Part shown: positions 14,647 through 44,371 of the stretch, piece by piece
How positions within the stretch are numbered: position 1 is the stretch's first letter
Layout of the letters: every line of letters begins with the position of its first letter
Assembly: GCF_025345565.1 (NCBI RefSeq)
Contig: NZ_CP054475.1
Location: 2,696,448-2,760,447 of the forward strand
Source: Thalassolituus hydrocarboniclasticus
Lineage (GTDB): Bacteria; Pseudomonadota; Gammaproteobacteria; Pseudomonadales; Oceanobacteraceae
DNA: 64,000 nucleotides
Reading direction: 5' to 3'
Position numbers and translations under genes: made by a program
The notes under the pieces: generated by a model
Databases searched by the model: none
The model's input: the letters and a program-made list of their open reading frames with translations, nothing else
Told to the model about the DNA's origin: nothing

Positions 14647-14663
14647 TTGGCACACCATTCGCA
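14647..14663 (+). promoter_or_regulatory. Candidate sigma-54 promoter of guanidine operon 1
   Basis: TTGGCACACCATTCGCA matches the -24/-12 consensus with a strong TTGGCAC and the required ten bases between GG and GC; the -12 element is TCGC instead of TTGC. The predicted start is about 14675, some 60 nt before the riboswitch core. A 7-bp-arm palindrome (AGGGCAT/ATGCCCT, 14590-14609) lies 40 bp upstream. Confidence 0.5.
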
Positions 14664-14730
14664 AATACCGTTGAGATGCGAAAACAATGGGGTGTTCTGC
14701 ATCGCTCGCGGAATTGCTACACTGAGTTCC

Positions 14731-14846
14731 GTTAATAGGTCGCTAGGGTTCCGGTTTGTGTTGTTAAACACGAACGACTGGTCCGAGAGCAACCGACCTC
14801 AGCCGCGTGCGGGGGTTACACGGAGGGATAAAAGCCCGGGAGATCA
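14731..14846 (+). ncRNA. Guanidine-I riboswitch (ykkC RNA), copy 1
   Basis: The conserved ykkC blocks appear in order with normal spacing: GTCGCTAGGGTTCCGG, then TGGTCCGAGAGCAACCGACC, then ACGGAGGGATAAAAGCCCGG followed by GAGA. The two outer blocks frame a variable P1b-type stem (TTGTGTTGTTAAACACGAA region). This RNA binds guanidinium and turns on downstream genes. It ends about 75 nt before an ABC permease, in agreement with the carboxylase-type guanidine operon it heads. The same motif recurs at 43112-43227. Confidence 0.95.
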
Positions 14847-14920
14847 CTGGAACATTCGCTCAGGCCAGCCTGTGCAATGCCCCTTGTATCCGCTCCGTTA
14901 ACCCGAACAGGAGTGCGCTT

Positions 14921-15733
14921 ATGCGCCGGCTGATTAATCAGAGAATTTCCCGCCCACTGGCTTTTTTTCTGGGCGCCCTGCCCTTCATTATCGCCATCCT
15001 GCTCTATATGGCAGCCTCAACCGAGCGCCTGAGCGACAATCCGAACGACAAATTACTGCCTGCCTTCAGCACCATGGGCGATACCCTGCTGCGCATGGCG
15101 ACCGAAGAAAATAAACGCAGCGGCGATATTCTGCTCTGGGTCGATACCCTCGCCAGCCTTGAACGCCTTGCCATGGGCGTTGGTATCAGTGCAACGATTG
15201 CTCTGTTATTTGGTTTAACGCTGGGTGCCCTGCCGCTGCTGCGCGCAAATTTATCACCCTTTACCACCGCCATCTCGATGGTGCCGCCCATGGCCCTGCT
15301 GCCGGTACTGTTTATTGTTTTCGGCCTCGGTGAAGTATCGAAAGTGGTACTGATTGTGATTGGTATCACGCCATATTTAATCCGCGAATTACAAAGCCGC
15401 GTATCGGAGCTCCCGACCGAACAGTGGATCAAGGCACAGACGCTGGGCGCCAACAGCTGGCAATTAATGCTGCGCATGGTGCTGCCGCAAATGCTGCCAC
15501 GCCTGGTCGATGCGCTGCGCCTGTCGATGGGAGCTGCCTGGTTATTTTTAATTGCCGCCGAAGCCATCGCCTCGACCGAAGGGCTTGGTTACCGGATTTT
15601 TCTGGTACGCCGTTATATGGCAATGGACGTCATCCTGCCTTATGTGGTGTGGATCAGCCTGCTGGCGATTATTTCTGATCAGTTACTGAAGCAACTGAAC
15701 CGCAAATTATTCCCCTGGTATCAGCCGCAATAA
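14921..15733 (+). CDS. Guanidine/urea-type ABC transporter permease
   Basis: The start is ATG 14921 with CAGGAG upstream, giving 270 aa; an open frame back to 14807 lies inside the riboswitch. It is a TauC/SsuC-like inner-membrane permease with about six helices and the EAA loop WIKAQTLGANSWQLMLRMVL near residue 175, which contacts the ATPase. It is the first gene after guanidine-I riboswitch 1. In this operon type the importer is annotated as urea-carboxylase-associated, but riboswitch control points to guanidine. The cognate binding protein is not here but at 43310-44371. Confidence 0.9.
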   Translation: MRRLINQRISRPLAFFLGALPFIIAILLYMAASTERLSDNPNDKLLPAFSTMGDTLLRMATEENKRSGDILLWVDTLASLERLAMGVGISATIALLFGLTLGALPLLRANLSPFTTAISMVPPMALLPVLFIVFGLGEVSKVVLIVIGITPYLIRELQSRVSELPTEQWIKAQTLGANSWQLMLRMVLPQMLPRLVDALRLSMGAAWLFLIAAEAIASTEGLGYRIFLVRRYMAMDVILPYVVWISLLAIISDQLLKQLNRKLFPWYQPQ

Positions 15734-15778
15734 ATGCACTGATCTTCAGACGCAGGATAACCACAAGGTGGAATATGT

Positions 15779-16642
15779 ATGAGTTTTATCGAATTTAAAA
15801 AAGTCAGCAAAACCTACGGCGATCAGCCGGTGCTGGACAATATCAATCTGAGCGTTAAAAAAGGCGAATTTGTGACCATGGTCGGAGCATCCGGCTGCGG
15901 CAAATCGACCTTTCTGAAAATGCTTTCCGGTCAGGAAAGCGCCAGTAAAGGCCAGTGCCTGCTGGATGGTCAGCCATTAACCGACGAGCCCAGTGTCGAC
16001 CGCGGCATTGTGTTTCAGAAATACTCGGTATTCCCCCATCTGAGCGTGCTGGACAACGTCATTCTCGGGCTGGAATTTGCCCAGAGTAAATTGCTGGCCC
16101 GCCTGTTTGGTAAAGCCCGCGCTCAGGCCAAAGAGAAAGCCATGAATCTGTTGCAGCGGGTAGGACTGCACAGCGCCGCCAATAAGTATCCACATGAACT
16201 TTCCGGTGGTATGCAGCAGCGTCTGGCCATTGCTCAGGCATTAATTAAAGAGCCAAAAATCCTGCTACTGGACGAGCCCTTCGGCGCCCTTGATCCGGGT
16301 ATCCGTGCCGATATGCACCAGTTAATTCTGGATTTATGGCAGCAAACCGGCACCACTATTTTTATGGTCACCCACGATATTGGTGAGGGTTTTTATCTCG
16401 GCAGCCGTTTATTGGTATTCGATAAAATCCGCCATGATCCTATGGCTCCCAATGCCTGGGGGGCGACCATTACCTACGATTTAAAACTGAACCTGGCCAA
16501 TCATGGCCAGCTGGCCAAAAGCGGCGACAGCGCTCAGGAACATTCTTTATACAACGATATTCAGCACTCCGTTCATGCCACAGCCCGTGTGCAGGACGAG
16601 GCAGGCCCAAGCATTGGAATAAGTACCGGAGTAGGTGCCTGA
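15779..16642 (+). CDS. Guanidine/urea-type ABC transporter ATPase
   Basis: The 287-aa protein has Walker A GASGCGKST (residues 36-44), signature LSGGMQQRLAIAQAL, Walker B LLLDEPFGALD and switch VTHDIGEGF. It powers the permease upstream. The C-terminal extension of about 70 residues beginning DKIRHDPMAPNAWGATITYD is characteristic of the urea-carboxylase-linked ATPase subgroup rather than TauB/SsuB. It starts 45 bp after the permease, with AAGGTGG before the ATG, and ends 22 bp before the deiminase-type gene. Confidence 0.92.
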   Translation: MSFIEFKKVSKTYGDQPVLDNINLSVKKGEFVTMVGASGCGKSTFLKMLSGQESASKGQCLLDGQPLTDEPSVDRGIVFQKYSVFPHLSVLDNVILGLEFAQSKLLARLFGKARAQAKEKAMNLLQRVGLHSAANKYPHELSGGMQQRLAIAQALIKEPKILLLDEPFGALDPGIRADMHQLILDLWQQTGTTIFMVTHDIGEGFYLGSRLLVFDKIRHDPMAPNAWGATITYDLKLNLANHGQLAKSGDSAQEHSLYNDIQHSVHATARVQDEAGPSIGISTGVGA

Positions 16643-16664
16643 ATAGGCGCCTGAAGGAGAACAT

Positions 16665-17420
16665 ATGACTCAGTTAAGCAAAAAACATCAGCAATTTTAT
16701 CAGGGCGAGGCCGTTTATCAGGATACGCTGGGAGGCGGCTGCCACTGGTCGATGCGGGTAAAAAAAGGCACGCTTATCACCTTTACCGACCTGCACGGCG
16801 GCGCCAATCTTGGTCTGTTAATGTTTAACCCATACGACCTGCTGGAAAAGTACAACGCACCGGATACCTTAAAATGCCAGCATACCTTTAAGCTGACTCA
16901 GGGCCACTGCCTGTATTCCGATATGGGCCGTATTTTTGCCTCTGTTGTGGCGGATGATTGCGGCTGGCACGACACCGTCTGCGGCAATATCAATAAAGCC
17001 ATGGTGGCAGAAAAATGGGGTATTAAAACCTATCAGGAAGCCCGTAATGGCTGGACACAGAACGGCTATGACAGCTTTCTGGTGGAATTCGCCAAATACG
17101 GTCTGTCACGCAAAGATATGGCCGCCAACCTCAATCTGTTCAGTCAGGTGCAGACCGATGATCAGGGCAATATGCGCTATATCGGCGATGCATCAAAGGC
17201 CGGAAATGCCATCACTCTGCGCTTTGAAATGGACACCCTGCTGATCATGCACACCTGTCCACATCCGTTAAACAATGCCGCCGAATATCCTGTGCGGCCG
17301 GTGCATTACCATCTGGGCAAAGCCGCCGCCGTTGCCGACGATGATGAGTGTAAAAATCACTGCGCAGAAAATCAGCGCGGTTTTCACAACAATTTTCTCT
17401 ATAACTTCTGCGAAGCCTGA
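16665..17420 (+). CDS. Carboxyguanidine deiminase subunit (urea carboxylase-associated protein 2 type)
   Basis: The 251-aa DUF1989-family protein is a member of the urea-carboxylase-associated pair. Work on Pseudomonas guanidine degradation assigned the pair as CgdAB, which deiminates carboxyguanidine to allophanate and ammonia. Conserved segments seen are [35 protein letters not shown] and [17 protein letters not shown]. The last 40 residues are Cys/His-rich ([10 protein letters not shown]). The ribosome site AAGGAG is strong. It is followed by its partner 11 bp downstream. The exact CgdA or CgdB assignment is left open. Confidence 0.88.
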
Positions 17421-17431
17421 GGAGCCGAATC

Positions 17432-18067
17432 ATGATTAAAGCAAGCACACTGCAGCCCCAGGATGCTAGTTTCCGCCAGACAGTACTCGCCGGTGACTAT
17501 TTTATTCACCGTATAGAAGCCGGACAGACCCTGCGTATTCTCGATCTGGAAGGTAATCAGGCCGCCGATACGCTGTTTTATAATGCCGATGATCCCAGCG
17601 AACGCTACAGCGCGACTGATACCATCCGCGCCCAGGGTAATGTATACCTGACAGCAGGCTCGGTGTTAATGACCAACGAAAACCGCCCGCTGCTGGAAAT
17701 TGTTGCCGATACCTGTGGTCGTCATGACACCTTAGGCGGTGCCTGCGCTACCGAATCCAATACCGTGCGCTACAGTCTGGAAAAAAAGTGCATGCACGCC
17801 TGCCGTGACAGCTGGATGCTGGCCATTAACGAGCATGAAGAATACGGGCTGGATAAAGCCGATATTACCCACAATATTAATTTCTTTATGAATGTACCGG
17901 TCACCGCTGAAGGCGGACTGACCTTTGCCGATGGCATTTCCGATGCCGGCAAATATGTCGAACTGAAAGCCCTGATGAACACCATTGTGCTGATATCCAA
18001 CTGCCCGCAGCTGAACAACCCCTGCAATGCCTATAACCCGACACCGATTGAAGTGATTGTCTGGTAA
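17432..18067 (+). CDS. Carboxyguanidine deiminase subunit (urea carboxylase-associated protein 1 type)
   Basis: The 211-aa paralogue of the preceding gene shares the DUF1989 pattern: [43 protein letters not shown] and [19 protein letters not shown]. The family is thought to work as a heteromer with the upstream subunit, turning carboxyguanidine into allophanate. The ribosome site is GAGGAG, and the start ATG 17432 follows the upstream stop by 11 bp, so tight coupling is likely. A 271-bp MITE begins 30 bp after its stop codon, separating it from the carboxylase gene. Confidence 0.88.
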
Positions 18068-18096
18068 TCCTGCCTGCCGATCAGAAAATTCATATT

Positions 18097-18367
18097 TTAA
18101 GGCACCTCTGAATAATTCTGCACAGCTTCGCGTGAGTGCTGCAGAGTGCTTTTGACAAGGCGTCGATTGCAGTGAATGGCGAGTCCTTTATAAAATCGAC
18201 AACACCGTCAAAACACTCTGCAGCCCACGCCCTTCGGGGCTTGCTGAAAAAATCCAGCTCGGTGTTGCCACGTTTTGGCGTAACCCGTTATGCCTTCAAC
18301 GTGGCGCCTTGATCTGAACTTTTTCAGTAAGCCGAAGCGGGCACTGAATTATTCAGAGGTGCCTTAA
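18097..18367 (+). mobile_element. MITE-like element, copy 1 (271 bp)
   Basis: A 271-bp non-coding element is bounded by perfect 22-bp terminal inverted repeats; each starts TTAAGGCACCTCTGAATAAT. The TTAA at each end is palindromic and may include the target duplication. Internal inverted arms include CTGCAGAGTG/CACTCTGCAG and GCCACGTT/AACGTGGC, so the transcript could fold into stacked hairpins. A second copy, inverted, is at 47296-47566 with the same length and about seven mismatches by my count. It lies inside the guanidine operon between the deiminase and carboxylase genes. No transposase is encoded. Confidence 0.85.
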
Positions 18368-18452
18368 GCCGCCGGACGACCGGCAGGCTTCAGTATTTAT
18401 GCAGGACGACCTGCCTCTTGTGAAACAAGACATTTAAGAATGAGGCAAGACC

Positions 18453-21400
18453 ATGTTTAAAAAAGTCTTAATCGCCAACCGTGGCGCTATTGCCAACCGT
18501 ATTATCCGCACCCTGAAAAAAATGAATATTCAGGCGGTTGCGGTTTACCATCAGGCCGACCAGCATTCGTTGCATGTCCAGCAGGCCGATGAGGCTTTCT
18601 GCTTGGGTGATGGCACGGTCGCGGATACCTACCTGAATCAGGAAAAAATCCTGCAGATTGCCAAAGACTGCGGTGCTGAAGCCATTCATCCCGGCTATGG
18701 TTTTTTAAGCGAAAATACCGGCTTCTCCCATGCCTGTGATCAGGATGGCGTGGTCTTTCTTGGCCCCACCGCCGCACAAATGGATGCCTTTGGCTTAAAA
18801 CACTCGGCGCGTGCACTGGCTGAAGCCAACAACGTTCCGCTGCTGCCGGGCACCGAACTGCTGACCGATATTCACAGTGCCACCCGTGAAGCCGAATGTA
18901 TTGGTTATCCGGTGATGTTAAAAAGCACCGCCGGTGGTGGCGGTATTGGTATGCAACTGTGTTACAGCGAGGCCGAACTACAGCAGGCGTTTGCCTCGGT
19001 TAAACGGTTAAGCGCCAATAACTTTGCCAACGATGGCGTATTTATCGAAAAATTTGTCGAAAAAGCCCGCCATATCGAAGTACAGATTTTTGGTGACGGT
19101 AAGGGGCAGGTGCTGGCATTGGGCGAGCGCGACTGTTCTATTCAGCGCCGCAACCAGAAAGTGCTGGAAGAAACACCGGCACCGGGTTTAACCGCACAAC
19201 AACGTGAAGCCTTGCACAGCACAGCAGCGCGTCTGGGCCGCTCGGTTAATTACCGCAGTGCCGGTACGGTCGAATTTATTTACGATGCCGATTCCGGCGA
19301 GTTTTATTTTCTCGAAGTGAATACCCGCTTACAGGTTGAGCACGGCGTTACCGAAGAAGTCTATGGTATTGATCTGGTGGAATGGATGGTGCGCCTTGGT
19401 GCCGGAGAAACGCTGCCACTGACAGAAGATTTCACGCCCAAAGGCCACAGCATTCAGGCACGGATTTATGCCGAAGATCCGGCACAGGATTTTCAGCCCT
19501 GCGCCGGATTATTAAGCAATGTCCGCTGGCCTCTGATAAAAGAGACTTCCGGTTGGCCATCACTGCGTATTGATACCTGGGTAGAAAGCGGCTCAGAAGT
19601 ACCGGCACTGTTCGACCCTATGCTGGCCAAAGTGATTGCCACCGCCGCCAACCGCGATCAGGCGCTGGCAACCCTGGCAGAAGCGCTGGCCGACACGGAA
19701 TTGTACGGACTGGAGTGCAACCGCCGTTATCTGCTCGATATTCTTAAAGATAAGCGCGTACAAGCCGGTGACGTGTACACCCAGTTATTAAAAACCCTGC
19801 AACACCAGCCCACCAGCGTGCAGGTATTAACCGCCGGAACACAAACCACCCTTCAGGATTTACCCGCGCGCATTGGCTATTGGGATATTGGTGTGCCACC
19901 GTCAGGTCCGTTCGATGGTTATTCTTTTGCTCTCGGTAACCGTTTACTCGGCAATGCAGAGCAGGCCGCGGGTCTGGAAATTACCTTAAAAGGCCCGGTA
20001 CTTAAATTTAACGCACCGACAAGGATATTACTGGCCGGTGCAGCCACCAGCGCCAGTCTGACCCGTGCCAACCAACCTACTGACAGCCTGAATCACAACA
20101 GTACAACCAGTGATATTGAATTCTGGCAGGTCATTGATATTAATGCCGGCGATATTCTCGACTGCGGCAGCGTTGGCAGTGGCGGTGCACGCGCCTATTG
20201 TTTAATCGCCGGTGGTTTTAACTGCCCGGACTATCTGGGTTCAAAATCCACCTTTACTCTCGGTCAGTTTGGCGGCCATAACGGTCGCGCATTATTACCG
20301 GGCGATGTGCTGCATTTTTCCGCAGATAATAAAACAGAACCTGCAACCCTTAACGATCCGGCTTTGCTGCCCACGATTGCCAATGAGTGGGAATTACGGG
20401 TTATTTACGGCCCACACGGCGCGCCTGAATTTTTCACCGACAGCGATATTGAACGCTTCTTTGCCCACACCTGGGAAGTGCACTACAACTCCAGCCGCAC
20501 CGGTGTGCGCCTGATTGGCCCCAAACCGGAATGGGCACGGGCCGACGGTGGTGAAGCCGGCTTGCATCCATCCAATATCCACGACAATGCCTACGCCATT
20601 GGTACCGTCGATTTTACCGGTGATATGCCGGTGATTTTAGGGCCGGACGGCCCGAGTCTGGGTGGCTTTGTCTGCCCGGCCACAGTGATCACCGCCGATT
20701 TATGGAAACTCGGTCAGTTAAAAGCCGGTGATAAAATCCGCTTTCTGCCGGTCAGCCAGCAGACTGCCGTTGCCTTAAACCGCGCACAGCAAAACAGCCT
20801 GGCAACACTGAATGCAGAGAATTATGCGGTTGAACGCTGGTTACCGGACAGCCCGATTGTACACAGCATCGCATATACCGGTCAGGCAGACTCACATCCG
20901 ACCGGTGTCGTTTATCGCCCCAGTGGAGACCAGTATTTACTGGTGGAATACGGCCCGCTGCAGCTGGATATCCGCTTGCGCTTCCGTGTCCACGCCTTAA
21001 TGCAGTATTTAAACACACAGAATATTACCGGCCTGTGGGAACTGACACCGGGCATCCGCTCGCTGCAGCTGCACTACGATTCCACACGTTTAAGTCAGCA
21101 GAAATTACTGCAGATATTAATTGCCGCCGAAGATCAGCTCGGTGATTTGCAGGATGCTGAAGTGCCGTCGCGCATTGTTCACCTGCCGCTTTCGTGGAAC
21201 GACGAAGCCTGCCAGCTGGCGGTGAATAAATACATGCAATCGGTACGGGCCGATGCGCCCTGGTGCCCGGATAATATTGAGTTTATCCGCCGTATTAATG
21301 GCCTGAAATCCATCGACGAAGTAAAGGACATTGTCTTTAACGCCAGTTATCTGGTGATGGGCTTAGGCGATGTGTATTTAGGTGCTCCGGTGGCAACGCC

Positions 21401-22124
21401 CATGGACCCGCGCCACCGTCTGGTCACCACCAAATATAATCCGGCGCGTACCTGGACGGCGGAAAACTCCGTCGGTATCGGCGGCGCCTATATGTGTATT
21501 TACGGTATGGAAGGCCCGGGCGGTTATCAGTTTGTTGGCCGCACCCTGCAGATGTGGAACCGCTATAAAACCACCCGCGAATTTACCCAGCCCTGGCTGC
21601 TGCGCTTTTTCGATCAGGTGCGTTTTTACGAGGTCAGCCACGACGAACTGATGACGATCCGCCAGCAGTTTCCCCACGGCCAGTACCCCATCAGAATTGA
21701 AAAAACCCGCTTTAATCTGGCGGAATACGAACGCTTTTTACAGGAACAGGGCACAGGCATTTCAGCCTTCCAGCAGGAGCGGCAAAAAGCCTTTCAGGCA
21801 GAACTTGAGGAATGGAAAGCCTCAGGAAAATTCCATTACGACAGCGAACCAGCGGTGTTGGAAGAAAGCGATGAGCGTCCGCTGGCTGAGGGTGAATTCA
21901 GCATCGACAGTCATGTCTCCGGTAATGTCTGGCAATGTCTGGTTAAACCCGGCGATCAGGTCAGCGCCGGTCAGCCTCTGGTGGTGCTGGAATCCATGAA
22001 AATGGAAATTGAAGTCAGCAGCCATCAGAGCGGTACCGTGGTGGAAGTGCTGCGCACAACCGGCCAGAGCGTCAGTCCGGGCAAAGCGCTGGTCATTCTG
22101 CAAACAGCCGGTAACGGGGAGTAA
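18453..22124 (+). CDS. Biotin-dependent guanidine carboxylase (urea carboxylase family)
   Basis: The 1223-aa enzyme has a biotin carboxylase domain (about 1-450; AEAIHPGYGFLSENTGFS, ATP loop STAGGGGIGMQ), a KipI/KipA-like carboxyltransferase region (about 465-1090; LQDLPARIGYWDIGVPPSGP and FVGRTLQMWNRY), and a C-terminal biotinyl domain with ESMKMEIEV, Lys1183 being the biotin site. It carboxylates guanidine or urea with bicarbonate and ATP. No allophanate hydrolase domain is fused or adjacent. The guanidine-I riboswitch and the deiminase pair in the operon favour guanidine as substrate. A MITE separates it from the upstream genes, and it has its own leader of about 85 bp with a GAGG ribosome site. 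Confidence 0.93.
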   Translation: MFKKVLIANRGAIANRIIRTLKKMNIQAVAVYHQADQHSLHVQQADEAFCLGDGTVADTYLNQEKILQIAKDCGAEAIHPGYGFLSENTGFSHACDQDGVVFLGPTAAQMDAFGLKHSARALAEANNVPLLPGTELLTDIHSATREAECIGYPVMLKSTAGGGGIGMQLCYSEAELQQAFASVKRLSANNFANDGVFIEKFVEKARHIEVQIFGDGKGQVLALGERDCSIQRRNQKVLEETPAPGLTAQQREALHSTAARLGRSVNYRSAGTVEFIYDADSGEFYFLEVNTRLQVEHGVTEEVYGIDLVEWMVRLGAGETLPLTEDFTPKGHSIQARIYAEDPAQDFQPCAGLLSNVRWPLIKETSGWPSLRIDTWVESGSEVPALFDPMLAKVIATAANRDQALATLAEALADTELYGLECNRRYLLDILKDKRVQAGDVYTQLLKTLQHQPTSVQVLTAGTQTTLQDLPARIGYWDIGVPPSGPFDGYSFALGNRLLGNAEQAAGLEITLKGPVLKFNAPTRILLAGAATSASLTRANQPTDSLNHNSTTSDIEFWQVIDINAGDILDCGSVGSGGARAYCLIAGGFNCPDYLGSKSTFTLGQFGGHNGRALLPGDVLHFSADNKTEPATLNDPALLPTIANEWELRVIYGPHGAPEFFTDSDIERFFAHTWEVHYNSSRTGVRLIGPKPEWARADGGEAGLHPSNIHDNAYAIGTVDFTGDMPVILGPDGPSLGGFVCPATVITADLWKLGQLKAGDKIRFLPVSQQTAVALNRAQQNSLATLNAENYAVERWLPDSPIVHSIAYTGQADSHPTGVVYRPSGDQYLLVEYGPLQLDIRLRFRVHALMQYLNTQNITGLWELTPGIRSLQLHYDSTRLSQQKLLQILIAAEDQLGDLQDAEVPSRIVHLPLSWNDEACQLAVNKYMQSVRADAPWCPDNIEFIRRINGLKSIDEVKDIVFNASYLVMGLGDVYLGAPVATPMDPRHRLVTTKYNPARTWTAENSVGIGGAYMCIYGMEGPGGYQFVGRTLQMWNRYKTTREFTQPWLLRFFDQVRFYEVSHDELMTIRQQFPHGQYPIRIEKTRFNLAEYERFLQEQGTGISAFQQERQKAFQAELEEWKASGKFHYDSEPAVLEESDERPLAEGEFSIDSHVSGNVWQCLVKPGDQVSAGQPLVVLESMKMEIEVSSHQSGTVVEVLRTTGQSVSPGKALVILQTAGNGE

Positions 22125-22236
22125 TTACTCCCCACTTTTCTGTGGCAGGTACTGGTAATGCCCTGATCATTCTGCGAACAGCCGGTAACGGGGAGTAATT
22201 ACTCCCCACTCCTCTGCGGCAGGTACTGGTAATGCC
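22089..22236. repeat. 74-bp tandem duplication over convergent gene ends
   Basis: Two adjacent 74-bp units (22089-22162 and 22163-22236) differ at a handful of bases. Each contains the perfect palindrome GGGGAGTAATTACTCCCC (22116-22133 and 22190-22207). The first unit supplies the carboxylase C-terminus and stop, and the second supplies the DUF1287 C-terminus and stop on the other strand. In both cases the palindrome encodes Gly-Glu-stop. Before duplication the two genes probably ended within the same palindrome, which also works as a bidirectional hairpin. Confidence 0.9.
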
Positions 22237-22837: not shown

Positions 22838-23059
22838 ACCCTGAGATTCCTTTCGTTAATGGTCAGCGGATATCTGAGCATCATAAGGCATAACCATAGC
22901 CTTACCCGCATCAGGATTGACCAGAATTCCGGCCGTTAGTGCCAACGGCAATAAACGCCAGACCTCGGTTTCAACCAGTAATCTGTGCATATTGATCATT
23001 GCTCTGTTATTCCGGGTTTGCCATCATGCCCGCCATACTGAACCGATGAGATCTTCCCT

Positions 23060-23815: not shown

Positions 23816-23826
23816 GTTCAGTACTT

Positions 23827-23865: not shown

Positions 23866-23890
23866 CACTGAACCGTTTAAGACGTTCAAT

Positions 23891-23930: not shown

Positions 23931-23955
23931 TAAGGCAGGCACTGTATCCCCGCTT

Positions 23956-23985: not shown

Positions 23986-24011
23986 TGAATAAAACGTCGC
24001 GCTGACCGCAA

Positions 24012-34130: not shown

Positions 34131-34139
34131 CAGAACGGT

Positions 34140-35220: not shown

Positions 35221-35251
35221 TAAAAAACGGAGCCGAAGCTCCGTTTTTTAT
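35221..35251 (-). terminator. Intrinsic terminator after hom
   Basis: The hairpin AACGGAGC-CGAA-GCTCCGTT has A/T-rich flanks. It lies 21 bp past the hom stop on the minus strand. Confidence 0.9.
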
Positions 35252-35272
35252 ATCTCAGCTGTCAGGCAAACC

Positions 35273-36571: not shown

Positions 36572-36608
36572 GGTCGTTTCTCCTTAAGATATAGAGAGTA
36601 TTAAGTTG

Positions 36609-37799
36609 TTAACCGCCAAAGCCATCGTTACGCAGCATCTGTTTAATGCCGCGCAGCGCCTGGCGGGTGCGCTGGTCATTCTCAATCAGGGCGAAGCGTA
36701 CATGGTCATCGCCGTATTCGCCAAAGCCAATTCCCGGTGACACAGCCACCTTGGCCTCGGTCAGCAGCTTCTTGCTGAACTCGAGGGAGCCCATTTTACG
36801 ATAAGCTTCAGGAATTTGCGCCCAGACAAACATGGTGGCTTTCGGCCATTTTACCGGCCAGCCCAGATCATTCAGCCCCTTGCAGAGTACATCCCGGCGG
36901 CTGCGGTACATCTCGCAGATATCGCTCACCACCGTCTGATCACCTTCCAGTGCGGCAATCGCTGCCACCTGAATAGGCGTGAATGTACCATAATCGAGGT
37001 AGGACTTAATCCTTGCCAGGGCATAAATCAGATCTTTATTGCCACAGCAGAAGCCAACCCGCCAGCCCGGCATGTTGTAGCTCTTCGACAGCGAGTAAAA
37101 CTCCACCGCAATGTCTTTCGCACCTTCGACCTGCAGAATGGACGGCGGCTGGTAACCGTCAAACACAATATCGGCATAGGCCAGATCCTGCACCACCCAG
37201 ATTTCATGCTCTTTACACATCGCCACCACCTTCTCGAAGAAGGCTAAATCGACACACTCGGCGGTCGGGTTGCCGGGAAAATTCAGCACCAGCATCTTCG
37301 GTCGTGGCCAGGTGGTTTTGATGGCTTTTTCCAGCTCATCGAAGAAATTCACATCCGGCGTCATCGGCACATGGCGGATATCGGCGCCGGCAATAACAAA
37401 ACCATAAGGGTGAATCGGATAAGACGGATTCGGCACCAGCACGTTATCGCCCGGACCCAGAGTGGCCAGCGCCAGATGCGCCAGTCCTTCCTTCGAGCCG
37501 ATGGTGGTAATCACCTCAGTTTCCGGATCGAGATCGACATTGAATTTGCGCTTATACCAGCTGGCCATGGCGCGGCGCAGACGCGGAATACCCTTCGACT
37601 GGCTGTAGCGATGGGTTCCGCCACGGGTCGCGGTTTCCACCAGCTTATCGACAATGTGTTTTGGCGTGTCCTGATCCGGGTTACCCATCGACATATCGAC
37701 GATGTCCTCCCCCGCCGCTCGTGCCGCCATCTTCATTTCGCCGATCACATTGAAGACATAAGGAGGCAGGCGCTTAATGCGCGGGAAGTTAGTATCCAT
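36609..37799 (-). CDS. alaC: Glutamate-pyruvate aminotransferase AlaC
   Basis: The 396-aa class I aminotransferase contains [31 protein letters not shown] and the PLP lysine in [16 protein letters not shown]. The start [17 protein letters not shown] is diagnostic of the AlaC/YfdZ group, which makes alanine from pyruvate and glutamate. It is followed by hom 37 bp downstream, so nitrogen and aspartate-family genes are joined in one transcript. ATG 37799 has a poor ribosome site. Confidence 0.95.
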
Positions 37800-37973
37800 A
37801 ACGGTGTCCTGATTCTCAGGTAATTAAAGGGACATCAAGGCTACTGTATCAACCGCAGGGGAACAACGATCAGTCGGCAGGAATTTGACCGGCACAGTAC
37901 GTGCGGTAAATCGCATAAAGCTGTGTTAGTGTCAGAACGACAATCTGATTGCAGAAAAACATAAGGAAAAGCA

Positions 37974-38486
37974 ATGGCAAACTTTCTTGTATTAACCGTT
38001 ATTGCCGACGACAAACCCGGAATTGTTGAACAACTGTCAGCCACCATAGCCCGCAATGGCGGTAACTGGCTGGAAAGCCGTATGGCGCATATGGCAGGAA
38101 AATTTGCCGGGATTTTGCGGGTATCTATTGCCGCCGAACAAAGCAACAGCCTGATTGCCGAATTAAGCTCGCTCAGCTCACGCGGTATTCTGGTCAATGC
38201 CGAAACCGGCAGCGACAGCGAAGAAAACGACAGCCTCGACCTGACCCTGAATCTGGTCGGCAACGACCGTCCGGGCATCGTCAAAGAAGTGTCTCAGGCA
38301 CTGGCAAAAATGGGCGTGAACGTACTGGAATTAACCACCGACTGCGGCACCGCCGAAATGTCTGCGGTGCCACTGTTCCGCGCCGAAGCCCTGCTGCGCG
38401 TACCACACAGTTTTGATACCGATATTCTGGCCAGTGCACTGGAAGCCATTTCCAATGACCTGATGGTAGAAATCCGTCTGGATTAA
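37974..38486 (+). CDS. Double-ACT-domain regulator, GcvR-like
   Basis: The 170-aa protein consists of two ACT domains: about 1-75 (LVLTVIADDKPGIVEQLSAT) and about 88-165 (LNLVGNDRPGIVKEVSQAL). GcvR of E. coli has this architecture and modulates the glycine-cleavage activator GcvA in response to glycine. Many marine gammaproteobacteria have such stand-alone proteins without proven function. It is divergent from alaC. AAGGA precedes ATG 37974. Confidence 0.85.
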   Translation: MANFLVLTVIADDKPGIVEQLSATIARNGGNWLESRMAHMAGKFAGILRVSIAAEQSNSLIAELSSLSSRGILVNAETGSDSEENDSLDLTLNLVGNDRPGIVKEVSQALAKMGVNVLELTTDCGTAEMSAVPLFRAEALLRVPHSFDTDILASALEAISNDLMVEIRLD

Positions 38487-38541
38487 TACTCCGGAAAGTG
38501 CCGTGCTGCACAGCGCTGCAGCACGGCCGGTATAAAAAGCA

Positions 38542-39309
38542 TCAGCCAATAACGGCCTGTCCCAGCAGCCAGGCAGAGTTACCCGCCAGCAGCCACATCA
38601 TCACTTTAAAAAACACATCGCCATCCATGCGTTTGCTTAACCAGCGACCAAGATAAACACCGGCAAAAGCCACCGGCACCAGAATCACGGTTAACCAGCC
38701 GATATCAAAATTCAGCAGCCCCAGCATGCCGTATGGCAATAATTTGATCGCATTCATCAGACCGATCGCGAGGGTTATCTGCGCCAGAAACGATTCCTTA
38801 TTGAGCTTACCCAGTAAAAAATACGCCTGCAGCGGTGCCGCACCGGCATGAGCAAGAGTACTGCCCAAACCGGCGATGCTGCCCAGTAAACCACCCTGCA
38901 ACGCCGACGCCTGCGCCGGTTGCTCTTGTCCGGCAGCCGCCATGCGCCGGCCGGCCAGCCAGGGCCAGCGCTTCTGCGCCAGCACCCAGAAACCGATCAG
39001 ACCAATCAGCGCCTGTACGCCACGTTCGCTGACCACGCCCAGTAATAAGGTGCCCGCCGTGATGCCCAGCAGAATACCGGGCAACAGGGGCTTCACCAGC
39101 GCGAACGACAGGTAACGGCGGTAGACGCGCAGGGTCATAATGTCCATCAGCAGCAGAATCGGCAGCAGAATACCGATGGCCTGCTCACCGCCGATAAAAG
39201 GCGCCATCATCGGCACTGCCACCACACCGATACCACCACCAAAACCGGATTTGGCAATGCCGGTTAACAACACGCCGAGCACGGCAATCGCAACAAAGGT
39301 CAGATCCAC
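38542..39309 (-). CDS. TSUP/TauE-SafE family membrane permease
   Basis: The 255-aa inner-membrane protein has about eight helices in two repeats with GIAKSGFGGGIGVVAVPMMAP and LNKESFLAQITLAIGL. The family exports sulfite, sulfonates or other organic anions. The start is GTG 39309 with GGGA upstream. No sulfonate genes are nearby, so the substrate is open. Confidence 0.9.
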   Translation of the reverse strand: MDLTFVAIAVLGVLLTGIAKSGFGGGIGVVAVPMMAPFIGGEQAIGILLPILLLMDIMTLRVYRRYLSFALVKPLLPGILLGITAGTLLLGVVSERGVQALIGLIGFWVLAQKRWPWLAGRRMAAAGQEQPAQASALQGGLLGSIAGLGSTLAHAGAAPLQAYFLLGKLNKESFLAQITLAIGLMNAIKLLPYGMLGLLNFDIGWLTVILVPVAFAGVYLGRWLSKRMDGDVFFKVMMWLLAGNSAWLLGQAVIG

Positions 39310-39361
39310 AAAACTATCCCGTCAGGCGGAGCCTTATCTGTACCCTCAGATCCGGCGCCGG

Positions 39362-40060
39362 TTAAGGTAAATCGAACAACAAGGCCTCCGCCTGGCTGTC
39401 AGCGCTGAAGGTCAGCGCCTGTTCATGGCTGATACTCACGCCGTCACCGGCATGTAATATCAGCGTGTCATCGCCGGCCTGCAGTTGCAGCGGGCCGTTA
39501 ATGGCATGCACATAATAGCGGCGCACCGGGTTCAGTATCTGCTCTGCGCTTTCTGCAGTCAGGCGCACGTGCAGCAGCTGCGCGTCCTGGCGGATACTGA
39601 GCGTGCCGTCGCGTCCGTCCGGCGTAATCACCGGCTGAATGGCCCGCTGGCGGGGAAAGCGCTTCTGCTGATAACCCGGCTCGGTATTCTGCTCATTGGG
39701 CTGAATCCAGATCTGCAGAAAATGCAGCGACTGGTCTGTCGCCGGATTAAATTCGCTGTGCATCACACCGCTGCCGGCCGACATCAGCTGAAACTCACCG
39801 GCCGGCAAATGCTCAACGTTGCCCATCGAGTCACGGTGAGCAATGGTGCCGTCCAGCACATAGCTGATGATTTCCATATTGCGGTGGCCGTGGGTATCGA
39901 AGCCTGCGCCCGGGGCAACCCGGTCGTCGTTGATAACCCGTAAAGCAGACACCCCCATATGCTGAGGGTCGTAATACTGGCCAAAAGAAAACGTATGCGA
40001 GCTGTTGAGCCAGCCAAAATTGGCCCGGCCACGTTCGCTGGCTGCGCGTAAGATTAACAT
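39362..40060 (-). CDS. Pirin-family cupin protein (YhhW-like)
   Basis: The 232-aa bicupin has the pirin pattern LNSSHTFSFGQYYDPQHMGV and the metal ligand set FDTHGHRNMEI plus SGVMHSEFN (two His, later His and Glu), as in quercetinase-active YhhW. It may act as a metal-dependent dioxygenase or redox sensor. It is divergent from an EamA transporter gene. No clear partner. Confidence 0.9.
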   Translation of the reverse strand: MLILRAASERGRANFGWLNSSHTFSFGQYYDPQHMGVSALRVINDDRVAPGAGFDTHGHRNMEIISYVLDGTIAHRDSMGNVEHLPAGEFQLMSAGSGVMHSEFNPATDQSLHFLQIWIQPNEQNTEPGYQQKRFPRQRAIQPVITPDGRDGTLSIRQDAQLLHVRLTAESAEQILNPVRRYYVHAINGPLQLQAGDDTLILHAGDGVSISHEQALTFSADSQAEALLFDLP

Positions 40061-40195
40061 GGTTCGCTCTCCTTCCGGGGTTATGGATGCAACACTCTTT
40101 TTCAGTGTCGCCGTAAAGCAGACACAGACTTCCGCCGAAGGCTGTGAAATACTGCTGCGCTTTTTTTGCTAAGCCTTTTTTCATGGCAAGCCGGT

Positions 40196-41152
40196 ATGTA
40201 TCCGGCAGCCCTACTGCCTGCGGGCCAGCGGTTTATTGTGTCTTCTACTTCCGAATCCGTATCCACAGACGATCAGCATCACGCCCAGCTGTTGCGCGCC
40301 GACCTGATTCTGCTTGGCGTTACCCTGCTGGCTGCTGTCAGCTGGATGTTTTCCAAAGAGGCGTTAAACGAATTTCCGCCGTTGCTGTTTATGGCCTGCC
40401 GCTTTAGCGCCGCCGGTCTGCTGCTGGCGATTCCCGGCCGCCGTGCGCTGGCCGCCTTACAGGCCCACGAATGGCGCGCTTCGGCCCTGGTCGGCCTGTT
40501 TTTCGGTGCCGCCATGAGCTTCTGGATCATGGGGCTGTTTAATGCTCACACCCTCGGCGAAGGCGCCTTTATTACCAGTCTGGCGGTGGTGCTGGTGCCT
40601 TTTATCAGCTGGCTGCTGTTCCGCGAGCGGCCGGCGAAAAGCATCTGGATTGCCCTGCCGCTGGCCATCGGCGGGCTGGCGCTGCTGTCGTTACGTCATG
40701 GTTTTACCCCTGACCCCGGCCAGCTGTTTTTCTTTGCCGCCGCCCTGCTTTTGTCACTCACCTTTATTCTCAACGGCCGTGCCGCGGCGCGTATTTCGGC
40801 ACTGGCCCTGAGCGCTATCCAGCTGGTGCTGGTCGGCGTTGTGTCTTTTACCCTGTCGGCCATGTTTGAAGACTGGCCCGATACTTTTACCCCAACCATG
40901 TGGCTGTGGCTGATTCTGAGCGTGACCGTCGGCACCGCCGCACGCTTTCTGCTGCAGACCTATGCTCAGGGTCTGGCGTCACCCAGCCATGCTGCAGTGA
41001 TTATGGTGCTGGAGCCGGTCTGGACCGCCATCATCGCCGCCTTCTGGTTTACCGAACGGATGGAAACAGCGCAGATTCTCGGCTGTACCCTGATTCTGCT
41101 GGCACTGCTGGCTAACCGCTGGAGTGCCATCAGCCGCTGGCTGAAGCGCTGA
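40196..41152 (+). CDS. EamA/DMT-family transporter
   Basis: The protein of about 318 aa has ten membrane helices in two EamA repeats (first LLGVTLLAAVSWMFSKEAL; second FFAAALLLSLTFILNGRAA). The start is uncertain: TTG 40166, ATG 40196 and GTG 40238 are all in frame and none has a good ribosome site. Hydrophobic sequence begins about residue 36 of the ATG form. It exports small metabolites. It is divergent from the pirin gene. Paralogous to the EamA gene at 13508-14482 but not adjacent. Confidence 0.85.
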   Translation: MYPAALLPAGQRFIVSSTSESVSTDDQHHAQLLRADLILLGVTLLAAVSWMFSKEALNEFPPLLFMACRFSAAGLLLAIPGRRALAALQAHEWRASALVGLFFGAAMSFWIMGLFNAHTLGEGAFITSLAVVLVPFISWLLFRERPAKSIWIALPLAIGGLALLSLRHGFTPDPGQLFFFAAALLLSLTFILNGRAAARISALALSAIQLVLVGVVSFTLSAMFEDWPDTFTPTMWLWLILSVTVGTAARFLLQTYAQGLASPSHAAVIMVLEPVWTAIIAAFWFTERMETAQILGCTLILLALLANRWSAISRWLKR

Positions 41153-41204
41153 AGCGGGCGCACTGCCCGCTTTACCGGCCCGCTTTTCCCAACTTGTTTA
41201 GCAA

Positions 41205-41849
41205 TTAATTACTCAGATCGTGCAGCTTACCCGGACGGCCATCCAGCACCGTCACTTCGCTCGCTGCCAGACGCGGCTTACGTGGCCAGTTACCGTCTTT
41301 GGCGTAACCCAGAGTCACCATCATGGCAACGCTGTAGCGCTCAGCAATGTTGAACACTTCTTTCGCTTTCGCGGTATCGAAGCCGATCATCGGCCCGGTG
41401 GCCATGCCCTTACCGGCCGCGGCCGTCATCAGGTTCATGGTCGCCATGCTGGCTGAGCGCAGTGCTTCATCGTGGGCTGCGGCTTTGTTATCGCCGTAGG
41501 CACCGTTTACCGCGCTGACAAAATAGTCGCGCACGCCTTCGTTGTAGATACCGGCATCGACACCACGCTGGGCGATATCCGGCATACGCTCATGGCCCTG
41601 TTCGTCAGCCAGCACCAGAATAACCACCGGCGCATCGGCCACTTTCTGCTGACCGTAGGCGATGTCTTTTAAGGTTTCTTTCGCCGCCTGATCGGTGACC
41701 ACCAGATAGCGGGTATGCTGAATGTTAAAGGCCGTTGGCGCATGCTGGGCGTAATCCAGCAGCTCCAGTACTTCCGCCGTGCTGATGGCACGTTCGGTAT
41801 CAAAGTAGTTCACAGAAGTACGCTGGCTCAGGGCATCAAATACGTTCAT
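41205..41849 (-). CDS. Nitroreductase-family FMN oxidoreductase
   Basis: The start is ATG 41849 with AAGGA seven bases upstream, giving 214 aa (MNVFDALSQRTSVNYF); the frame extends to 41912. The nitroreductase fold signature is LLDYAQHAPTAFNIQHTRY and AAAGKGMATGPMIGFD. It reduces quinones or nitro-compounds using NAD(P)H and FMN. It is divergent from a LysR gene, which probably controls it. Confidence 0.92.
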   Translation of the reverse strand: MNVFDALSQRTSVNYFDTERAISTAEVLELLDYAQHAPTAFNIQHTRYLVVTDQAAKETLKDIAYGQQKVADAPVVILVLADEQGHERMPDIAQRGVDAGIYNEGVRDYFVSAVNGAYGDNKAAAHDEALRSASMATMNLMTAAAGKGMATGPMIGFDTAKAKEVFNIAERYSVAMMVTLGYAKDGNWPRKPRLAASEVTVLDGRPGKLHDLSN

Positions 41850-41998
41850 GGCGGCATCCTTAAATCGGGTATCGGTTCGGGTATTGGTTGTGGTGTTAGG
41901 GCTGTTAAGCAATGAGTGCAGTTTAAGTTCGCTTTATTCGATTAAAAATCTCATAATTTAACGCATAGCTTTCGATATTTACGAAAAGGTATTCAGCA

Positions 41999-42907
41999 AT
42001 GAAAACAACCCTCGAACAGTGGCGCATGTTTAAAGCGGTGGTTGACCATGGCGGCTACGCTCAGGCGGCCGAGGCCATCTTCAAGAGTCAGTCGACCATC
42101 AGCTATGGCGTACACAAACTGCAGGAACAACTGGGCGTACAGCTTTTGGAAGTAGAAGGGCGCAAAGCGGTACTGACCGAGCACGGCCGTATTCTGTTAC
42201 AGCGTGCCGAACAGTTGCTCGATCAGGCAGAGAATATCGATCAGGTTGCCAGCTCGCTTAATCAGGGCGTCGAGCCTGTTGTGCGTGCGGCCATCGACAC
42301 TATTTACCCCAACGATGTGTTGTTTGATGTGTTTGAAGCTTTCTCGGCCGAGTACCCAGATACCCGTCTGGAGCTGGAAGAATTTGTGCTCAGTGGCGGC
42401 AACGAAATGCTGCTCGAAGACAGCATCGATATTCTGATTACCCCACAACTGCCCAGTGGCTGGAACGGCGAGCACGTACACCGCTCCTGCTTTCTGCCGG
42501 TCACCAGCCCGCAGCATCCGTTGCAACATCTGGGGCGCGAGGTCACCTACGATGACCTTACCGCTCACCGGCAGGTGGTGCTGCGCGACAGCAGCCGTAA
42601 ACGCCGCAGCGAAGGTGGCTGGCTCGGTGCCCATCAGCGCTGGACCGTGACCCATACCAGCACCCGACTGAATATTGTCCGTCGCGGTCTGGGCTTTGCC
42701 TGGCTGCCGGAACTGCTGATTGCCGACGACCTGAAAAGCGGGGCCTTGCAGGTGATTCCCTTTGCTCAGGATGCGCGGCGCTACGTCGACCTTTATCTGG
42801 TGATGGCCCATGAAGAAAGCGCCGGCCCCGCCACCCGCGCCCTCGCCCGTCTGTTAGCCAACACTGATACCGGCTGCAAGGCTGCGCATAAAGCAGAAAC
42901 CGAATAA
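41999..42907 (+). CDS. LysR-family transcriptional regulator
   Basis: The 302-aa protein has a LysR helix-turn-helix (QWRMFKAVVDHGGYAQAAEA, then STISYGVHKLQEQLGVQLL) and an effector-binding domain with PNDVLFDVFEAFSAEYPDTR. It is divergent from the nitroreductase gene with 149 bp between the starts, the standard LysR arrangement. The downstream end carries a palindrome before guanidine operon 2. Confidence 0.92.
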   Translation: MKTTLEQWRMFKAVVDHGGYAQAAEAIFKSQSTISYGVHKLQEQLGVQLLEVEGRKAVLTEHGRILLQRAEQLLDQAENIDQVASSLNQGVEPVVRAAIDTIYPNDVLFDVFEAFSAEYPDTRLELEEFVLSGGNEMLLEDSIDILITPQLPSGWNGEHVHRSCFLPVTSPQHPLQHLGREVTYDDLTAHRQVVLRDSSRKRRSEGGWLGAHQRWTVTHTSTRLNIVRRGLGFAWLPELLIADDLKSGALQVIPFAQDARRYVDLYLVMAHEESAGPATRALARLLANTDTGCKAAHKAETE

Positions 42908-42949
42908 GCGCCCCAGAATGCAGCGACCATCTGTTCAGCTAATCATCTG

Positions 42950-42968
42950 TGCACCCTTTTGGGGTGCA
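42950..42968. promoter_or_regulatory. NtrC-like palindrome upstream of guanidine operon 2
   Basis: TGCACCC-TTTTG-GGGTGCA has perfect 7-bp arms. It resembles an NtrC enhancer (TGCACC...GGTGCA) with the arms two bases farther apart than the 17-bp consensus. It lies 73 bp before a sigma-54-like promoter. It could instead be part of a terminator for the LysR gene, but no T-run follows. Confidence 0.5.
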
Positions 42969-43040
42969 ACTGACAGCAAAATCAGCAACTTAACACTCGC
43001 CAGCCTGCCGGATGCTGCAATTTTCAGGCTCCGGCAAAAC

Positions 43041-43056
43041 TGGTACAGCCCTTGCT
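43041..43056 (+). promoter_or_regulatory. Candidate sigma-54 promoter of guanidine operon 2
   Basis: TGGTACAGCCCTTGCT fits TGGYACR-N4-TTGCW with exactly ten bases between GG and GC. The predicted start, about 43068, is 45-50 nt before the riboswitch core. It suggests RpoN-dependent transcription on nitrogen limitation. Confidence 0.6.
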
Positions 43057-43111
43057 GAACCCTGATCAGTAACAGGAGATACTCGGCAACCGAATCCGGT
43101 TGGGATTCACA

Positions 43112-43227
43112 GAAATAGGTGGCTAGGGTTCCGGTTCTTTGCTGAAAAAGAACGTCTGGTCCGAGAGCAACCGACCTCAGCGTATTCACAGCGCAGGTTA
43201 CACGGCGGGACAAAAGCCCGGGAGACC
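43112..43227 (+). ncRNA. Guanidine-I riboswitch (ykkC RNA), copy 2
   Basis: All conserved ykkC blocks are present: GTGGCTAGGGTTCCGG, then CTGGTCCGAGAGCAACCGAC, and ACGGCGGGACAAAAGCCCGG followed by GAGA. The variable stem pairs GTTCTTT with AAAGAAC. It differs from copy 1 mainly in stem sequence, so it is not a recent duplicate. It ends 83 nt before the binding-protein start codon and would turn on that gene when guanidine is present. Confidence 0.95.
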
Positions 43228-43309
43228 CACACGCGAATGCCAGCATCTGGCCGTTTCGCGCTGAGTTCTCCTGCCGTCTGATTTATGTGGATATCAAAGA
43301 GGAAGTCCT

Positions 43310-44371
43310 ATGAAGCCGTTAAAACGTCTGCTCACCGCCAGCCTGGTCACCCTGGCCGCCCTTACCCCATTACACGCTCAGGCCAAAGACAGTTTCCGTC
43401 TGGCCTGGTCTATCTATGTTGGCTGGATGCCGTGGGATTACGCCGACAAGGCCGGCATCGTAAAAAAATGGGCCGATAAATACGGCATCGAGATCGAAGT
43501 GGTGCAGATCAACGATTACGTTGAATCCATCAACCAGTTTACCGCCGGTGAATTCGACGCCTGCGTAATGACCAATATGGATGCCCTGACCATTCCGGCC
43601 GCCAGCGGCGTCGACACCACCGCCTTAATCGTCGGTGACTTCTCCAACGGCAACGACGCTGTGATTCTGAAAGAAGGCACAAGCCTGAAAGACATCAAAG
43701 GCCTGCCGGTGAATCTGGTGGAGCTGTCGGTTTCCCATTATCTGCTGGCACGTGGTCTGGAAAGCGTAGGCATGAGCGAAAAAGACGTATCGGTGATCAA
43801 CACCTCCGACGCCGATATGGTGGCGGCTTATGGCACCGGTGATGTTAAAGCCGTGGTCACCTGGAACCCGCTGGTGAGCGAAATTCTGGCGCAGCCAAAC
43901 GCAACCTCCGTGTTTAATTCCTCACAGATTCCGGGTGAAATTATCGACACCACCATGGTCAACAGCGAAACCCTGGCCGCTAACCCTGCCTTCGCCAAAG
44001 CCCTGACCGGCGCCTGGTACGAAACCATGAGCATCATGGCGAAAGACGACGCCGAAGGTAAAAAAGCACGCAGCATGATGGCCGAAGCCTCAGGCACCGA
44101 CCTGGCCGGTTACGATGCTCAGCTGGCCGCCACCAAAATGTTCTACGACGCACAAAAAGCCGTGGAATTTGTGAACAGCGCCGAGCTGCCAAAAACCATG
44201 GAATACGTGGCGAAATTCTCCTTCGACCACGGTCTGCTGGGTGATGGCGCCGCCGATGCCGGCTTTATCGGCATGGCCTTCCCGAATGGCAAAACCTTTG
44301 GCGATAAAGGTAATGTGAAACTGCGCTTTACCGACAGCTATATGAAGATGGCGGCTGAAGGAAAGCTGTGA
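43310..44371 (+). CDS. Guanidine/urea-type ABC transporter substrate-binding protein
   Basis: The 353-aa protein has a signal peptide (about 1-26, ending HAQAKDS). The mature part is of the NitT/TauT type with SIYVGWMPWDYADKAGIVKK and the urea-carboxylase-linked family's length and pattern. It probably binds guanidine in the periplasm and delivers it to the permease/ATPase at 14.9-16.6 kb. It is the only gene after riboswitch 2. GAGGAAG precedes ATG 43310. Confidence 0.9.
   Translation: MKPLKRLLTASLVTLAALTPLHAQAKDSFRLAWSIYVGWMPWDYADKAGIVKKWADKYGIEIEVVQINDYVESINQFTAGEFDACVMTNMDALTIPAASGVDTTALIVGDFSNGNDAVILKEGTSLKDIKGLPVNLVELSVSHYLLARGLESVGMSEKDVSVINTSDADMVAAYGTGDVKAVVTWNPLVSEILAQPNATSVFNSSQIPGEIIDTTMVNSETLAANPAFAKALTGAWYETMSIMAKDDAEGKKARSMMAEASGTDLAGYDAQLAATKMFYDAQKAVEFVNSAELPKTMEYVAKFSFDHGLLGDGAADAGFIGMAFPNGKTFGDKGNVKLRFTDSYMKMAAEGKL

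Follow-up and report, generated by a model that had tools for sequence, protein, structure and literature searches.

Why should the binding protein of a predicted guanidine importer be encoded far from its permease and ATPase, behind a riboswitch of its own? The question is raised by a stretch of 64,000 nucleotides from Thalassolituus hydrocarboniclasticus (contig NZ_CP054475.1, positions 2,696,448 to 2,760,447), hereafter the window, whose source genome is a single contig of 4,067,951 bases. Three riboswitch-headed units are found there. Unit A comprises a guanidine-I riboswitch, an ATP-binding cassette (ABC) permease, an ABC ATPase and the carboxyguanidine deiminase subunits CgdA and CgdB; unit B, within the same gene run, comprises a guanidine-II riboswitch and a guanidine carboxylase; and unit C, 28.4 kb from unit A, comprises a second guanidine-I riboswitch and the binding protein alone. 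The arrangement is likely explained by the stepwise dismantling of an ancestral guanidine operon, most pieces of which kept a sensor.

Sensors and enzymes of the three units

The guanidine-I aptamers of units A and C lie at 14732-14844 (+; 90.5 bits, E 5.6e-15) and 43112-43226 (+; 89.4 bits, E 1e-14), well above the gathering score of 63 of the RF00442 covariance model, confirming a preliminary description of the window that had placed guanidine-I motifs at both sites. A search of the whole 4.07 Mb genome with this model returned only these two copies, which are 77% identical over 113 aligned columns. Downstream of the first, the permease gene (14921-15733, +; start codon set after the aptamer) matches TauC/SaoP-type permease models and the ATPase gene (15779-16642, +) matches ABC ATPase models, in each case below the models' cut-offs; these are general ABC family matches, with none over cut-off among the NCBIfam matches listed. 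The next two genes encode proteins of the CgdA type (UAAP1; 16665-17420, +; TIGR03425, 310 bits, cut-off 206) and the CgdB type (UAAP2; 17432-18067, +; TIGR03424, 328 bits, cut-off 285), the two models being those that we take to represent CgdA and CgdB. Both subunit models thus exceed their cut-offs in adjacent genes, pointing to a CgdAB enzyme whose activity is predicted from sequence.

The sole gene of unit C (43310-44371, +) reaches 573 bits with TIGR03427 (cut-off 334), a model titled putative urea ABC binding protein, so that the importer's substrate is a prediction; no relative of the protein was found among PDB sequences at E 1e-5. Together, RF00442 and TIGR03427 bear out the earlier claim that guanidine-I heads two units, the second of which consists of the separated binding protein alone. 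No full guanidine ABC operon exists elsewhere in the genome: a single protein exceeds the TIGR03427 cut-off, and TIGR02712 is matched once at E 1e-200. The binding protein, the permease, the ATPase, CgdAB, the carboxylase and the allophanate hydrolase therefore do not stand in one run here. The preliminary description had also assigned the carboxylase to the first guanidine-I riboswitch; the permease, ATPase, CgdA and CgdB do belong there, but the carboxylase lies behind a guanidine-II switch of its own that had been missed. Likewise, the division into two riboswitch units holds for the guanidine-I units, but there are three sensors in all, and the hydrolase lies outside the window without one.

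The guanidine-II (mini-ykkC) riboswitch of unit B (18368-18414, +; RF01068, 36.7 bits, cut-off 32) shows two ACGR-loop hairpins and is the only RF01068 match in the genome. The carboxylase that follows (18453-22124, +; TIGR02712, 1800.6 bits, cut-off 1303.85) shares 96% identity with its counterpart in Thalassolituus alkanivorans. Guanidine carboxylases are distinguished from urea carboxylases by Asp at the positions of K. lactis residues 1330 and 1584, according to the available portion of PMC11410670. The window carboxylase has Asp aligned to 1330, where the K. lactis urea carboxylase has Asn, and its Asp at the 1584 position rests on the GLGDV motif. A motif scan of 80 named carboxylase loci found 79 copies with Asp and 2 with Asn, the latter being the second, urea-type carboxylase of L093 and the sole carboxylase of L046; the urea-type carboxylases of genomes G001 and G032 also carry Asn. 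The L046 operon has both guanidine-I and guanidine-II riboswitches, yet its carboxylase has Asn where guanidine carboxylases have Asp.

Across the same 80 loci, guanidine-II elements were surveyed with a purpose-built model, 25 of whose 28 training sequences were drawn from these loci. In 54 loci, 29 of them new to the model, a guanidine-II element starts no more than about 120 bases from the carboxylase match; among its 57 hits over the named loci, L059:6060, L091 and L099 lie elsewhere. Guanidine-II ahead of the carboxylase is a standard, already published arrangement. In a separate observation at L172 (G040, 4624-11518), CgdA and CgdB are 79% and 92% identical to those of the window, the carboxylase is only 61% identical and the hydrolase is operon-type; because the deiminase subunits are close while the carboxylase is distant, the part downstream of guanidine-II seems to have been swapped as one module.

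A working scheme can be proposed in which unit A would serve the import of guanidine and the conversion of carboxyguanidine to allophanate, while the guanidine-II element inside its run would set carboxylase synthesis. Both riboswitch classes are on-switches according to the accessible text of PMC12508155 and PMC12186494, and ligand-bound aptamers would raise expression of all three units. Since each piece carries its own sensor, breakage of the operon would be tolerated. The preliminary description suggested that the split would allow capture and breakdown to be controlled separately; units A and C share the same riboswitch class, and nothing indicates that their responses differ. In V. boliviensis, as far as the available part of PMC12508155 goes, guanidine-I is specific for guanidine and guanidine-II is equally sensitive to methylguanidine.

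Gene order in relatives and the history of the break

Two flanking genes allow the pieces to be followed among relatives: an EamA/DMT-family transporter gene divergent from unit A (13508-14503, -; Pfam EamA, 59.3 bits) and a LysR-type regulator gene to the left of unit C (41999-42907, +; Pfam LysR). The gene after unit C is methionyl-tRNA synthetase-like, as recognized by eye. Within the family, 28 of 44 genomes carry guanidine-I and six have two copies. The split of the window recurs in four of the nine genomes of the genus (G000, G036, G039, G042), both pieces keeping the window's flanks; the distance between them is measurable only in the window's own genome, the others being less complete. 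T. alkanivorans TMPB967 is divided in the same way. In the Oceanobacter-group genomes G016 and G017, a single stretch reads LysR, guanidine-I, binding protein, antisense EamA, guanidine-I, permease, ATPase, CgdA, CgdB, guanidine-II and carboxylase. Their LysR gene corresponds to the left neighbour of unit C and their EamA gene to that of unit A, the window EamA being 56-57% identical to its homologues at L162/L163. A LysR homologue lies within the guanidine locus stretch of G014-G017, G028 and G043.

The preliminary description had proposed that the binding protein was moved out of the operon. Gene order favours the reverse. Neighbours were compared in the 24 family genomes with a single guanidine-I locus (45% identity, 90 bits; fetched stretches of about 6 to 70 kb): homologues of window genes at 28-43 kb occur in the stretch around the guanidine locus in 13, whereas homologues of the genes left of EamA do so in none. 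In G043, homologues of most genes at 28.4-42.9 kb run into the guanidine locus. In G028, a single contig, the order of window homologues is 36609, 37974, 40166, 41999, guanidine locus, 23060, 60772 and 63150, placing the locus between homologues of 41999 and 60772, the slot of window unit C. The enoyl-CoA hydratase homologous to window gene 23060 follows the carboxylase in G015, G017, G028 and G043, which suggests that it moved along with the block. The contrast between 13 and none of 24 thus argues that the older site was most probably kept by the binding protein, the permease-carboxylase block being the part that moved.

On this basis, which is comparative and confined to gene order, a first step would have brought an EamA gene and a second guanidine-I copy between the binding protein and the permease, giving the order of G016 and G017; comparison supports that arrangement, with both guanidine-I units side by side and an antisense EamA between them, as an earlier step of the break-up. 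In a second step, the EamA-permease-carboxylase block would have left, the binding protein keeping the older site. A tandem duplication in which each copy then lost what the other kept could account for the swapped gene order in one orientation.

Several points weigh against this history. In eleven of the 24 one-locus genomes, the fetched stretch contains no neighbour from the window, which leaves 13 genomes as the basis for the older site, and the support from G010 and G029 amounts to two genes only. Gene 12550, the only gene left of EamA that was searched genome-wide, is well matched in just 7 of 22 genomes, 4 of them split; the absence from all 24 is correspondingly weaker, since genes left of EamA may be missing from relatives altogether. 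That this side is poorly tested favours the alternative in which the operon originally lay where the permease is now and the binding protein left it for the 43 kb position, taking up a sensor of its own there; so does the fact that only this one gene is apart, the others still forming one run. The neighbours of unit C around 13 one-locus guanidine loci against none for the permease unit, together with the position of the G028 locus in the unit C slot, make this alternative quite improbable. Homologues of 12550 in G017, G028 and G018 have no window flank genes within the 20 kb fetched, and no empty destination of the moved block was therefore seen.

A further objection comes from the guanidine-I tree, in which supports are low and the Thalassolituus permease-side copies are not united with those of G016 and G017; a single origin of the second copy is therefore not shown by the RNA. 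The window's two aptamers, only 77% identical, are likewise not paired in the tree, as might be expected had unit C been gained independently, with a binding protein and riboswitch acquired from a different strain and the resident binding protein lost. The binding protein is, however, 80-82% identical to the G016/G017 genes, similar to the permease (76%), and the LysR gene has been retained beside it, so that independent gain appears unlikely. Taken together, the history of retention of the binding protein and departure of the block is reasonably supported.

A mobile element also lies within the permease-carboxylase run. Between CgdB and the guanidine-II aptamer, which it abuts, 263 bases (18101-18363, no strand assigned) with terminal inverted repeats and no long open reading frame are flanked by TTAA at 18097-18100 and 18364-18367. 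The genome holds 13 matches, including partial and terminal-repeat ones, of which three are near full length; TTAA flanks both sides of two of these, and the third lacks a clean duplication. The site at 18.1 kb is also occupied in G039 and empty in G036/L025 and G042/L026. Inverted repeats, target duplication, lack of a long reading frame, several copies and an empty site in relatives identify it as a miniature inverted-repeat transposable element (MITE). As RNA it is predicted to form a very stable hairpin (z -11.3), both guanidine-II hairpins remaining intact in the fold with the insertion. A second, near-identical copy (97%) is present at 47296-47565 (-).

The two near-identical MITEs (97%), at 18.1 and 47.3 kb, flank the interval, and recombination between them was considered as the cause of the rearrangement. 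The copies are inverted, an orientation in which recombination would invert the interval. Moreover, G036 and G042 are split although the four stretches retrieved from these genomes contain no MITE match. MITE recombination was rejected on this ground, and its probability is very small.

Two observations on the loci of relatives stand apart from this history. In the metagenome-assembled genome G042, which has the same split, the binding-protein gene (L169, 9926-10985) is interrupted into two overlapping frames, through decay or assembly error. In G043 (L170, 4736-10013), another ABC set is transcribed divergently from guanidine-I/CgdAB, together with genes for a type III glutamine synthetase and for a protein that resembles creatininase at a score below cut-off. 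Similar ABC sets occupy that place in G027, G028, G030-G032, G035, G040, G041 and G018; the G043-type set, which is not on the riboswitch strand, may stand in for the guanidine importer.

Riboswitch control and the distant allophanate hydrolase

How the guanidine-I aptamers would control their genes was approached through the leaders. The usual guanidine-I expression platform is an intrinsic terminator, as stated in the consulted part of PMC12186494, and one is presumed for V. boliviensis in that of PMC12508155. No terminator-like site was found in the leader of unit A or unit C, which bears on the mechanism and not on the riboswitch class; by the rule of the script, only 4 of 99 distinct guanidine-I leaders are terminator-like, three of them beyond 75 bases. 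A candidate platform in unit A, 14888-14904 (+), is complementary to 14813-14829 with one bulge per side and ends 16 bases before the start codon. This leader stretch is paired in the minimum-energy fold (z -2.64), and a gap-free helix test was not significant, with 69% of shuffles as good. The candidate in unit C, 43269-43277 (+), is complementary to aptamer bases 43202-43210; its 9-base helix is reached by 3% of 200 shuffles, and five of nine pairs appear in the minimum-energy fold, whose z is only -1.40.

These candidates are suggestive only. Anti-aptamer pairing at or below 5% occurs in 28 of 128 leaders (about 6 expected), with a median of 0.42 and values of 0.03 for unit C and 0.69 for unit A; the script's start codon was wrong for some of these leaders, unit C included. 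An anti-Shine-Dalgarno platform was rejected: of 93 leaders, after four more had been dropped for lack of a start or for shortness, two reach the 5% level, and at the median 66 of 100 shuffles are as good. For pairing between the leader and the 3' end of the aptamer, 9 of the 93 reach that level. The negative anti-Shine-Dalgarno result and the small number of anti-aptamer leaders, unit A's not among them, make any account of the switching step tentative; with low confidence, a platform that masks the aptamer and acts on translation or Rho is favoured. For guanidine-II, the 3' strand of the second hairpin pairs with the Shine-Dalgarno region at the 5% level in 8 of 55 loci (4% in the window), and this is not general. 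Pair counts look strongly covarying, and the sequences had been preselected by a rule requiring pairing; the covariation is therefore not independent evidence.

Allophanate, the predicted product of unit A, would be passed to a hydrolase encoded elsewhere. The only TIGR02713 match over cut-off in the genome lies at contig positions 158540-160210, 2.55 Mb from unit A along the contig, and is followed by a GntR gene; no guanidine RNA family was found in the 4.7 kb scanned around it. In the family census of 44 genomes, 26 have TIGR02712 at E 1e-200 and 25 have one TIGR02713 match at E 1e-100. G001 has a urea-type pair only, and G019 has a carboxylase and no hydrolase. The other 24 genomes each hold a guanidine-type carboxylase and a single hydrolase. 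The two genes adjoin in nine (G003, G004, G007, G009, G010, G018, G029, G033, G040), and in the other 15 the hydrolase is elsewhere or on another contig, including G032, where it stands beside a urea carboxylase.

A tree of 74 hydrolases (FastTree, midpoint-rooted, short or identical proteins dropped) places these 15, G001 and one Vreelandella protein (L101) in one clade with support 1.0, two of whose 17 members adjoin urea carboxylases. Outside it fall all 52 operon-labelled hydrolases and five Marinobacter hydrolases. The hydrolase of the present genome thus does not belong to the guanidine-operon lineage and groups with the solitary and urea-carboxylase-linked ones. Because the separated hydrolases join the urea-carboxylase-linked type, we infer that the operon hydrolase was replaced by one of the urea pathway, which would work from its distant site beside the GntR gene. 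Solitary hydrolases of this type are predicted to complete guanidine breakdown, and being solitary, they would cause gene-neighbourhood searches to miss the last step.

Genes for urease gamma, beta and alpha subunits, UreE and UreG (51024-55413) begin some 6.7 kb past the gene for the binding protein, giving urea a separate route. Inside the alpha-subunit gene (51708-53420), the Rfam family 5_ureB_sRNA scores 99.1 bits on the opposite strand (51863-52149, -); this match is probably protein-coding conservation read by the model and not a small RNA.

Recurrence of split units and comparison with known systems

The single-operon form, which the preliminary description had noted for many bacteria, is indeed the commonest arrangement: 34 of the 80 named loci show the plain run of guanidine-I, binding protein, permease, ATPase, CgdA, CgdB and carboxylase, and many of the remaining loci are truncated by contig ends or the 10 kb flank. 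In ten Marinobacter loci, one guanidine-I copy heads CgdA, CgdB, the carboxylase and the binding protein, and another heads permease and ATPase; L030 ends after the second copy, and three loci (L039, L040, L045) have everything in one run. The guanidine-I pattern may miss copies, as four Vibrio loci with an intact gene run show none.

At the level of the order, strict filters at E 1e-6 detected guanidine-I in 110 of 390 genomes, with two or more copies in 18, all of which were examined, 16 of them through retrieved stretches and the other two being G000 and G016. In 11 of these, from four families, binding protein and permease stand under different copies: G000 and G016 (f1), G068 (f26), G102, G134, G185, G339 and G356 (f20, one genus), and G229, G357 and G406 (f21). 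The genomes are related, and the 11 are therefore not independent events. Four further f21 genomes (G103, G267, G373, G390) have an extra guanidine-I and binding-protein paralogue ahead of a plain operon, and three combine a plain operon with another guanidine-I elsewhere (G135 and G209 with another ABC set; G178, by eye, with a lone binding-protein-like gene). At L238 (6608-7756, -), a lone gene, by eye an ABC binding protein, immediately follows a guanidine-I copy of its own, and no ABC partner genes were seen next to it. In G068, an antisense EamA gene lies between the two units. EamA-family genes also recur around guanidine loci L237, L241, L243, L244, L035 and L057, making these proteins candidate transporters of guanidino compounds.

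Whether separation brings a benefit is a distinct matter. The break may have been neutral, all units responding together and separate sensors only preserving coordinated control; this concerns benefit and is compatible with stepwise dismantling. The shared sensor class and similar scores of units A and C agree with neutrality, and so do the several patterns of splitting, as expected from drift. The extra binding-protein paralogues with their own guanidine-I in four genomes of one family speak against it and hint at selection for binding-protein supply, leaving neutrality just short of an even chance.

A broader claim is ventured tentatively and, taken jointly, is rather doubtful: sensor RNAs would make each pathway gene a self-regulating cassette; the importer would have been broken repeatedly in Pseudomonadales, into binding-protein, permease-ATPase and carboxylase modules, because every piece brings its own sensor; binding proteins standing alone would be selected for capture at high output; and the last enzyme would have been borrowed from the urea-carboxylase pathway, outside guanidine control. 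Binding proteins alone behind guanidine-I riboswitches do recur in Pseudomonadales. The series from a single operon through two adjacent sensor units to two distant ones illustrates how an operon can come apart while a common RNA sensor is kept, and the arrangement offers a natural setting in which to ask whether separate control benefits the binding protein of an ABC importer.

Among known systems, that of Vreelandella boliviensis, in the portion of PMC12508155 available, resembles the window's system: it opens with guanidine-I, carries guanidine-II in the gap that separates cgdB from the carboxylase, and has an ABC importer with binding protein, CgdA, CgdB and allophanate hydrolase. It forms one operon that includes the hydrolase and mgdH/mgdL, whereas here the binding protein and hydrolase lie elsewhere and the permease-to-carboxylase run leaves no room for mgdH/mgdL. 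Raoultella terrigena, Erwinia rhapontici and Klebsiella michiganensis, as far as covered by the accessible sections of PMC12186494, likewise have guanidine-I on the importer and deaminase genes and guanidine-II on the carboxylase, but the allophanate hydrolase is immediately downstream with the carboxylase and no separated binding protein is described in those sections. Operon IV of Ectopseudomonas guguanensis G3 shares more than one guanidine-I around ABC genes and a LysR gene, and has two binding-protein genes; it is described as one operon, unlike the separate sites of the window, and the available part of PMC13296017 does not mention guanidine-II. The Marinobacter loci (L031, L033, L034 and seven others) also split the importer into two guanidine-I units, but in them the second unit consists of permease and ATPase, the binding protein being grouped with CgdA, CgdB and the carboxylase, and none of 17 Marinobacter loci has a guanidine-II match, in contrast to the window. 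No description of a binding protein at a distant guanidine-I unit came up in a search of the open-licence literature. The parts are mostly known, and the way in which the operon was taken apart is a new variation.

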